A stretch of 33,696 bases of DNA from an uncultured Phocaeicola sp. GTDB taxonomy: Bacteria; Bacteroidota; Bacteroidia; Bacteroidales; Bacteroidaceae. The notes beneath the pieces were generated by a model. It saw only the letters and a program-made list of their open reading frames with translations, had not been told where the DNA came from and ran no database searches. Made by a program: the position numbers and the translations under genes. Numbering within the stretch: position 1 is the stretch's first letter; every line of letters starts with the position of its first letter. The stretch covers positions 1 to 33,696 of the forward strand of contig CANQSM010000033.1 of NCBI GenBank assembly GCA_947626525.1, in the 5' to 3' direction. Positions 1 through 22,776 of this stretch are shown here, piece by piece.

Positions 1-258
1 CCCCATCATTATAGGAAAATCTTTCATTAGAGGAGTGTCTTTCATTCTGACTGAAACTCCCGGTAACGCGTGTTTTCTTTCGTCCAATACTTTACCTTTT
101 AACCGGACTGTTTTTTGTGCCGGGGAGACTCTTCCGTTCTGGACAAACTCCGTTGCCAGGACATTGCTCTGCGGCAGGATGGCGCATAAAAAAATCAGCC
201 ATAGCCTCAGCCTTCCGAAGGCTTTTCTCTTAATACTGATAATTCCGTCTTCTTTCAT
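1..258 (-). CDS. SusC/RagA-type TonB-dependent receptor, N-terminal part, cut by window edge
   Basis: The minus strand reads open from an ATG at 258 to the window edge, giving 86 residues. A basic N-terminus (KRKAFGRLR) is followed by a hydrophobic stretch and a plausible signal peptidase site near NVLA (about residue 35). Residues 51-72 (VRLKGKVLDE, then LPGVSVRMK) match the start of the carboxypeptidase-regulatory-like domain that precedes the plug of SusC-like receptors (V.G.V.D....LPGVSV). Such receptors import glycans or other nutrients through the outer membrane with a SusD partner, which would lie outside the window. The plug and barrel are not visible, so another CarboxypepD_reg-like outer-membrane protein is possible. 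A putative invertible promoter lies upstream at 364-687. Confidence 0.7.
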   Translation of the reverse strand, partial: MKEDGIISIKRKAFGRLRLWLIFLCAILPQSNVLATEFVQNGRVSPAQKTVRLKGKVLDERKHALPGVSVRMKDTPLMKDFPIMMG

Positions 259-363
259 AAGTTTAGAATTTAATGTGACAATGCGGGGCGTACCGGAATG
301 GCCCGTAACGGTATGCTCCTGTTTCTTATAAATTGTAATTACATCATTTTCTTGTTTTATCAC

Positions 364-687
364 TTTTACGGCTCGTCACAATTTGGTAAGTCCGGATAGA
401 ACTTCCAAAAATTAAAGGATTCCCATACGCTTGTCATTCAAGCGCGGTATACTTTCATTCTATTTGTGAACAAATATATAAAAGTTTTATTTTTTGCATC
501 ATTCACTTTCTTATTATTATGTTTTTTTAACATCGCTCGTTTTCTCCCGAGACTCAAGTCTCTTATTGGAATTCAGAAAGATAAGTTTCAAATATCCGTC
601 TGTTCCACGTGAACAAGTACATAAATATTATCCCGACCAATCTGATAAGTACTATCCGGACTTACCGGATTGTGACGAACCGTAAAA
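364..687. repeat. Pair of 36-base inverted repeats (364-399 / 652-687) enclosing a 252-base segment; candidate invertible promoter
   Basis: Bases 364-399 and the reverse complement of 652-687 match at 33 of 36 positions; the mismatches are at repeat positions 9, 20 and 21. Total span is 324 bases. The segment between contains no convincing gene but carries a promoter box (471-478) facing the SusC-like gene 106 bases beyond the left repeat. Bacteroides invertible promoters are commonly built this way, with inverted repeats around a promoter upstream of SusC-type or capsule genes. No invertase gene is present in this window. A decayed MITE-like element is the alternative. Confidence 0.6.
471..478 (-). 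promoter_or_regulatory. Putative -7 box (TATATTTG) directed at the SusC-like gene, inside the inverted-repeat segment
   Basis: On the minus strand this reads TATATTTG, matching the Bacteroidetes -7 consensus TAnnTTTG. Transcription would run left, through the left inverted repeat, and reach the ATG at 258 after a leader of roughly 200 bases. There is no clear -33 TTTG at the expected distance. I found no match to the consensus in the opposite direction inside the segment, so in the orientation shown the receptor would be ON. Confidence 0.4.
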
Positions 688-754
688 CCGATAAAAAACA
701 ATACACAGTCGTCCGACAACTTCATTGCCAACCAATCGGGAGCATAACTATGAT

Positions 755-960
755 TGCTCCCCTTTTTCCCGCGTGGGGACGGCAGTACCGGCCAACCTAT
801 ATGAATCGCCCTTGTCACGGATGTGTTTTGTCTGTTCCATATATCTCCGTTCACCGTCCGGCGTTCGCTGGACGGTCCATGCAGATAGGTGCGTCGGCTT
901 TCGCAGCTATCTGACTTCACCGTCCAGCGTACCGCCGGACGGTGAACGGAGCTTACTGTC
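755..960 (+). repeat. Dispersed intergenic repeat, copy 1, with three consecutive hairpins
   Basis: Bases 755-863 align closely with 8069-8180: both read CTCCCCTTTTT..., then CCAACCTATATGAAT, ACGGATGTGTTTTGT and CCGTTCACCGTCC, and both copies end in GCTTACTGTC. Three hairpins follow in this copy: 853-876 (7-bp stem plus inner pairs), 882-913 (stem 882-893 / 902-913 with one mismatch) and 916-946 (10-bp stem plus inner pairs). A minus-strand ORF through this copy and one through copy 2 share a peptide (QNTSVT.AIHIGW), but I read them as by-products of the repeat, not genes. Confidence 0.7.
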
Positions 961-995
961 ATGACTGTGTAACTCCTCTATGTCTTTGATATGAC

Positions 996-1035
996 GCGGG
1001 TTCGACGAATTCAGAACAAAGCAAGTTGTGCGTCC
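996..1035 (+). repeat. Short dispersed repeat (CGGGTTCGACGAATTCAG type), copy 1
   Basis: The block GTTCGACGAATTCAGAA, then CAAG and GTG.GTCCA, recurs at 22738-22776 beside an IS982 remnant, and a shorter form (GTGAGTCCGACGAATTT) lies at 8017-8033. Here it ends one base before the stop codon of the DUF5686 gene. It may be an insertion-sequence end or an independent intergenic repeat. Confidence 0.5.
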
Positions 1036-8068: not shown

Positions 8069-8207
8069 CTCTCCCCTTTTTTCCGCATGGGGATGGCAGT
8101 ATCAGCCAACCTATATGAATGGCCTTTGTTACGGATGTGTTTTGTTTGTTCCTTGTATCACCGTTCACCGTCCAGCGGCCGCTGGACGGTGAACGGCGCT
8201 TACTGTC
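8069..8207 (+). repeat. Dispersed intergenic repeat, copy 2, with a perfect 36-bp palindrome
   Basis: This copy aligns with 755-960. It contains a perfect palindrome at 8161-8196 (arms of 18 bases, centre GCGGCCGC), followed by CGCTTACTGTC as in copy 1. Compared with copy 1 it lacks about 60 bases, so copy 1 has three hairpins where this copy has one. The 309-base gap between mscL and the next gene holds only this repeat and the short repeat before it. Confidence 0.75.
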
Positions 8208-22675: not shown

Positions 22676-22730
22676 AGGTTGGGACTCTCATTATAAAAAT
22701 AATGCTGAATCCCAGCCTCTTTTTATTTTA
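22676..22730 (+). terminator. Rho-independent terminator of bcp-recA
   Basis: AGGTTGGGA (22676-22684) pairs with TCCCAGCCT (22710-22718) with one G.T. Inside, CATTAT (22889-style inner arm at 22689-22694) pairs with ATAATG (22699-22704) around an AAAA loop. The structure is followed by CTTTTTATTTTA. Confidence 0.85.
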
Positions 22731-22731
22731 T

Positions 22732-22776
22732 AACGTGAGTTCGACGAATTCAGAATAAGGCAAGCCGTGTGTCCAC
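22732..22776 (+). repeat. Short dispersed repeat (AACGTGAGTTCGACGAATTCAG), copy 3, beside an IS982 remnant
   Basis: This copy begins AACGTGAGTTCGACGAATTC and continues with AAGGCAAG and GTGTGTCCA, matching 996-1035 over about 40 bases. Because it abuts the 3' end of the transposase remnant, it could be the terminal region of that insertion sequence. Confidence 0.5.

Follow-up and report, generated by a model that had tools for sequence, protein, structure and literature searches.

A probable invertible promoter upstream of SusC-family genes in an uncultured Phocaeicola, and the search for its recombinase

In gut Bacteroidota, SusC/SusD pairs act as gates for nutrients. In the DNA analysed here, the beginning of a SusC-type receptor gene is preceded by a pair of inverted repeats, which raises the question of whether these repeats bound a promoter that can be flipped and, if so, which recombinase flips it. 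The window (33,696 nt) is the whole of contig C33 in a 3.77-Mb assembly of an uncultured Phocaeicola sp. comprising 233 contigs. We consider it highly likely that the 342-bp element lying between this gene and the rest of the contig is a site-specific invertible promoter (inverton) flipped by a recombinase encoded elsewhere; in all likelihood it works as an on/off switch, of a kind already known but with a recognition sequence particular to it.

The element, its promoter-like box and its target gene

An inverted-repeat scan of the window delimited two arms of 50 nt each, matching at 44 of 50 positions (355-404 and 647-696), which together with the 242 nt that they enclose make up the 342-bp element. 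The features of the locus are as follows.

1..258, minus strand: SusC-family receptor gene, 5' part only (truncated at the contig start), ATG at 258-256; overlap partner C177 (ORF, overlap, profiles)
355..404, plus strand: left inverted-repeat arm, 50 nt (repeat scan, locus alignment)
375..399, plus strand: 25-nt core site GTCACAATTTGGTAAGTCCGGATAG of the left arm (core search, locus alignment)
394..398, plus strand: GGATA, centre of the best left-arm dyad, a weak hint at the crossover spacer (dyad scan, shuffles)
405..646, no strand: putative invertible segment, 242 nt, of which C8 holds an identical inverted copy (C33/C8 alignment)
471..478, minus strand: TATATTTG, putative -7-type box of Bacteroidales, directed at the SusC gene, ON orientation (motif scan, consensus)
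647..696, minus strand: right inverted-repeat arm, 50 nt, 44/50 to the left arm (repeat scan, locus alignment)
652..676, minus strand: 25-nt core site GTCACAATCCGGTAAGTCCGGATAG of the right arm (core search, locus alignment)
653..657, minus strand: GGATA, centre of the best right-arm dyad, a weak hint at the crossover spacer (dyad scan, shuffles)
699..993, no strand, approximate borders: copy of a dispersed hairpin-rich intergenic repeat adjoining the switch (repeat search; also at the C8 and C31 copies)

The arms are far above chance expectation: the element has a repeat score (match minus twice mismatch) of 32, against 19 for the runner-up among the inverted repeats of the window and a top score of 16 in 30 first-order Markov sequences of window length. 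The initial annotation had described 36-base arms at 364-399 and 652-687, matching at 33 of 36 positions and enclosing 252 nt; position, matches and spacing proved exact, while the extent was understated, the true arms being 50 nt long. The element has no evident coding capacity; as in Bacteroidales invertons, inverted repeats flank a non-coding segment upstream of a gene. The dispersed repeat that adjoins it, about 300 bp long with CCGTCCAGCG stems, occurs at more than 30 places in the genome, with up to 100% identity (C31) and with further pieces at window positions 8071-8190 and 22716-22775; it is not needed for the switch model.

The octamer TATATTTG, which we take to be a -7-type promoter box after the Bacteroidales consensus (TAnnTTTG), is the sole TAnnTTTG in 355-696 when both strands are scanned. 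It lies on the minus strand (478 to 471) and points toward the SusC ATG (258 to 256), as had been claimed from the sequence at the outset; with none on the plus strand, the predicted promoter faces the gene in one orientation only. Shuffling of the inner segment (2000 dinucleotide shuffles) yielded TATATTTG on one strand in 1.3% of cases and TAnnTTTG in 14.3%, so that the box by itself is weak evidence, and TATATTTG has no good -33 element (best 2/4). If transcription starts about 7 nt past TATATTTG, the leader before the SusC ATG would be about 205 nt long.

The window gene runs on the minus strand from its ATG for 86 open codons up to the contig start. C8 starts with the same SusC beginning, its 84 open codons being alike to the 86 of C33, and C177 overlaps the starts of the window and of C8 equally, by 77 nt. 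C177 codes for most of one SusC and the beginning of a SusD, and it is a SusC by profile (TIGR04056, Plug, beta-barrel), which bears out the first description of the gene as a SusC-like receptor; it may represent the C33 locus, the C8 locus or both. The copy on C27 precedes a complete 1007-aa SusC and a 571-aa SusD. Given SusC and SusD in both C177 and C27, the genes behind the element encode surface structures.

Copies in opposite orientation and the exchange interval

Copies of the element are found elsewhere in the genome at C8:350-691 (97%) and C27:36740-37083 (90%), and a fourth, cut by the contig end, at C31:34811-34900. The three complete copies (C27, C33, C8) each lie directly upstream of a SusC-type gene and each contain TATATTTG. 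When one of them is reversed, the inner segments of C33 and C8 are identical at 242 of 242 positions without a gap, compared with merely 42 matches and 370 gap columns when they are aligned directly; their left flanks agree in 325 of 355 columns (92%) and their right flanks in 304 of 320 (95%). The C27 segment fits C8 directly and C33 reversed (219/244 columns each). Opposite orientations therefore occur between paralogous loci of one genome, C33 on one side and C8 and C27 on the other. As assembled, the box points toward SusC in C33 (ON) and away from it in C8 and C27 (predicted OFF), in line with the OFF state that the initial annotation had foreseen on reversal. The C31 fragment shows the C8 arrangement, and the ON arrangement is seen among the copies in C33 only. 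Over window 690-1009, C33 and C31 do not differ at any of the 320 bases, yet their segment ends are opposite. Moreover, the two arms of C27 match each other at 50/50 positions yet differ from the arms elsewhere, which is what one expects if the arms of an element recombine with each other.

These comparisons support the reading of the locus as a candidate invertible promoter, since in C8 the inverted 242 nt sit between outer arm halves that are specific to the same flanks. Homologues fixed in one orientation had been put forward as what would refute that reading; the opposite was found, the C8 segment being identical but inverted. It should be kept in mind that we infer inversion from paralogous loci of one assembly of short-read type. 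Nevertheless, in-genome paralogue comparison offers a cheap, read-free route to inferring inversion and to mapping the exchange interval.

Indeed, the arms carry markers that delimit this interval. At arm positions 8, 9 and 18 the letter is specific to the left or the right side and remains with the flank in both C33 arms, both C8 arms and the one arm of C31, and position 46, with A at one segment end and T at the other, travels with the segment in C33, C8 and C31. Strand exchange is thus placed at arm positions 19-45, that is, window 373-399 on the left. Positions 29/30 (TT in the left arm of C33, CC in the other C33 and C8 arms) track neither flank nor segment, and the arm differences at positions 8, 9, 13 and 18 fall outside the core. 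GGATA (arm positions 40-44) forms the centre of the best dyad in each of the three arm types; shuffles reached the score of this dyad in 97/500 cases for the left arm and 11/500 for the right, so that GGATA is only a weak hint at the crossover spacer. A TAAGT spacer, taken from a dyad found by eye, was dropped in favour of the computed GGATA dyad; the marker mapping is compatible with both. In the mechanism that we propose, a recombinase encoded elsewhere would pair the two oppositely oriented 50-nt arms and exchange strands within the core of about 27 nt that they have in common, which would flip the 242-nt segment. The TATATTTG promoter would then point toward SusC in C33 as assembled (ON) and away from SusC in the flipped state of C8 and C27 (OFF). 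Among the points that speak against the inverton reading are the -33 element at 2/4, the weak core dyad and window arms that are only 88% alike.

Within the assembly, the core site is confined to these elements. A search of the 3.77-Mb assembly with up to 3 mismatches allowed, for which the reversed-pattern control gave 0, found seven core sites GTCACAATNNGGTAAGTNCGGATAG, each with 0 mismatches and all within the four elements, and no further one. Outside this genome, the exact core pattern had 0 matches in genome_contigs and 0 in viral_contigs, collections from which records close to the source genome may be omitted. At up to 3 mismatches it occurred in 6 of 399 genomes of the family (a sample of a larger group, source genome included); the five other genomes, among 398, had one match each with 3 mismatches, which is chance level because the reversed control matched 6 genomes. 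The 342-bp element had no full-length match in 60 relatives, three of which gave one match of 33-42 nt each (E 5.6e-4 to 8.9e-4). In the plasmid collection, the near search returned a single 35-base match at window 1000-1034, outside the element, and the distant search returned none. As for SusC relatives in genome_contigs, 8 stretches matched the pattern and 0 were confirmed.

We also scanned the SusC loci L106-L134 (29 out of 51 SusC rows, taken besides C33 and C8), with flanks of up to 1500 nt; L117, L118 and L134 begin inside the gene, and the upstream sequence is shorter than 300 nt in L130 and than 750 nt in L106. An inverted repeat of at least 18 nt at 60-1200 nt spacing was present at one of these 29 loci, C27. 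Two observations of another sort also concern SusC genes. The same insertion-sequence-like termini end C9, C18, C47, C105, C149, C197 and C208 (L140, L148, L149, L143, L146, L144 and L134), and several of these ends fall inside or beside SusC genes, suggesting an element that interrupts SusC loci. C3 and C62 (L142, L141) open with a shared stretch of about 77 nt, around profile position 80, at which two SusC genes start; they are another SusC repeat pair.

Since the same site family precedes at least three SusC loci (C33, C8, C27), with a fourth copy cut (C31), phase variation of several SusC/SusD outer-membrane systems is probably the work of a single recombinase acting in trans. A wider reading, rather unlikely in our estimation, is that the site family links three or four separate SusC/SusD loci in a network, in which the trans-acting recombinase would both flip promoters and swap cassettes between loci. 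Such exchange would explain the identity of the C33 and C8 cassettes (242/242) despite flanks that differ by 5-8%, as well as the identity of C33 and C31 over window 690-1009 with opposite segment ends. If this were true, receptor repertoires would be reset jointly.

Candidate recombinases and competing readings

The genome holds 39 rows for the tyrosine recombinase profile PF00589 (37 above cut-off) and 10 for the serine recombinase profile PF00239. Neither profile gives a row on the window contig, which agrees with the earlier remark that the window lacks an invertase. Around the sites (C33 whole, C8 1-20 kb, C27 18-37 kb, C31 18-35 kb), PF00589 finds XerD on C27 only and PF00239 has no row; the distant recombinase deduced in the initial annotation thus holds so far. 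In an NCBIfam scan of 10 recombinases, XerD alone passed the cut-off.

A repeat scan around recombinases covered 21 stretches, a part of the PF00589 set. It showed six recombinases with a promoter-sized repeat pair of their own (C8:36 kb, C12, C40, C4, C81, C34), the one on C12 being truncated by the contig start. The genome contains six other similar elements, each a recombinase with a perfect or near-perfect repeat pair 147-284 nt apart and arms of 18 to 31 nt.

L150:4122-4330 (C8): candidate invertible promoter beside a tyrosine recombinase (repeat scan)
L050:602-940 (C12): candidate invertible promoter beside a tyrosine recombinase (repeat scan)
L208:1500-1686 (C40): candidate invertible promoter beside a tyrosine recombinase (repeat scan)
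L209:2586-2915 (C4): candidate invertible promoter beside a tyrosine recombinase (repeat scan)
L211:2062-2260 (C81): candidate invertible promoter beside a tyrosine recombinase (repeat scan)
L212:3014-3210 (C34): candidate invertible promoter beside a tyrosine recombinase (repeat scan)

The gene that follows the C8:36 kb repeat pair is presumably upxY-like; Pfam gave no match.

A 313-aa recombinase on C47 was our first candidate on account of its orphan look (no local repeat), and it was dropped because GTTAC-type sites lie alongside it and in the loci of its relatives. Of 201 genomes searched for such relatives, 95 matched, and 17 of the 29 foreign loci fetched were compared (L152-L168). A GTTAC-type repeat pair was present in 10 of the 17 (L152-L161); L163 has another short perfect pair and the rest none of that kind. 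In the source genome, four places have the GTTAC class with 0-1 mismatch, forming one pair on C27 and another beside C47, the members of each pair lying about 5 kb apart; at 2 mismatches the search is uninformative (27 matches, against 66 for a control pattern). The sequence GTCACAATT downstream of C47 is at chance level (39/200 shuffles).

Two stretches of about 5 kb, in L149 (C47:22000-28177) and L221 (C27:1-7000), lie between GTTAC-type inverted sites. Each contains a large lipoprotein-like gene (907 aa on C47, 1001 aa on C27) with nearly identical starts, and Pfam collagen-repeat and DUF4988 matches above cut-off are found only in the C27 gene. The C27 arms are identical at 55 of 55 positions, and the C47 stretch lies just upstream of the tyrosine recombinase. 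Together, they are possibly a two-locus lipoprotein switch. The C27 GTTAC-type arm (L221:162) and the right SusC arm version (window 650) have TACTATCCGGA in common, a shared length reached by 1 of 1000 shuffles in what was one of 7 arms tested.

A 402-aa recombinase at C1:47.8-49.0 kb has no promoter-type repeat, the 17/18 repeat there flanking the gene itself; it is a candidate by elimination only. Given that six other recombinases have repeats of their own, that the one on C47 adjoins the GTTAC class and that only XerD lies nearby, the SusC switch recombinase probably acts at a distance.

That the recombinase scans tied none to the element would also fit a frozen former switch, one inverted in the past, or once after SusC duplication, with no active recombinase left, and the arm mismatches (6/50 in the window, 5/50 in C8) point the same way. 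We regard this as very unlikely: a C33/C8 segment identical at 242/242 between flanks that differ by 5-8%, and C27 arms identical at 50/50, both indicate recent exchange, and the arm differences at 8, 9, 13 and 18 spare the core. Switching is probably reversible and continuing.

The assembly itself requires caution. Its contigs overlap by 77 nt and it therefore looks short-read; since exact repeats collapse in an assembly graph, the assembler may have had a part in both the orientation called at a given locus and the perfect identity. One could then suppose a single fixed orientation everywhere, with the repeated segment mis-threaded in C33 or C8. Where an exact repeat occurs in both orientations, a k-mer graph with 77-nt overlaps merges them; it is at these repeats that C31, as well as C33 and C8 on their left, breaks off; and C33 is the sole ON copy. 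However, the C27 copy, separately assembled and about 10% diverged, is OFF relative to SusC, so that opposite orientations exist if C33 is right, and an artefact leaves the identical arms and the promoter box unexplained; we judge it highly improbable.

A MITE-like non-autonomous mobile element with 50-nt terminal repeats, inserted either way upstream of SusC genes, is exceedingly improbable: the element is multicopy, has terminal inverted repeats and no evident coding capacity, adjoins a dispersed repeat family and shares the eight bases beyond its right arm (AACAATAC) between C33 and C27, a match that might count as part of the element instead of the flank, but there are merely three complete copies and a cut one, the complete ones all before SusC, with no other core site, the crossover falls inside the arms and not at their ends because both flanks and the outer arm halves are common to C33 and C8, and no target duplication is seen by eye at the arm borders.

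Relation to known systems

We thus favor a site-specific invertible promoter whose recombinase is encoded elsewhere. Promoter inversion before SusC/SusD and other surface genes is already known in Bacteroidales, and the mechanism is not new. Several SusC loci on one site family without an adjacent invertase are an instructive arrangement; moreover, as this switch site is distinct from the other switch repeats of the genome, they provide a clean case for finding a distance-acting recombinase. Published accounts suggest what may depend on such switches: gut inflammation is reported to go with differences in orientation near susC/susD and at capsule promoters (PMC10939037), and capsule switching bears on phage sensitivity (PMC12118408). 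A promoter that still flips although its adjacent recombinase is defective has also been described (PMC13114119).

Bacteroidota inverton group 131 (PMC11892184) is, by its published description, among the closest systems. Like the SusC element, the GTTAC-GTAAC class has repeats that flank a promoter, with its tyrosine invertase nearby (PMC12118408). The initial annotation had proposed comparing the repeat with known site classes, and here the likeness ends: the GTTAC-GTAAC palindrome is absent from the SusC arms, a class which this genome carries at other places (C27:140/5119 and C47:21793/26753). The SusC site is also unlike the repeat sequences quoted in PMC12118408, the literature being compared here by words and not by sequence.

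In B. fragilis BF2766/Tsr19, one tyrosine recombinase inverts local and distant promoters (IVp-I and IVp-II) and thereby turns a surface polysaccharide operon and a cluster of outer-membrane-protein genes on and off, as described in PMC4747536. Our element resembles this system in its promoter between inverted repeats and in the predicted ON/OFF control of surface genes, a likeness of description and not of site sequence; it differs in that no recombinase was found next to a site. Tsr0667 of B. fragilis (Nakayama-Imaohji 2009, as cited in PMC4747536) carries out shufflon-type multiple inversions at three SusC/SusD clusters and nine other invertible regions. According to that account, the two systems would share site-specific inversion at several SusC/SusD loci of one genome; unlike the shufflon, it is here a short non-coding segment upstream of susC that would invert, the inverted 242 nt lying upstream of the ATG in C33, C8 and C27.
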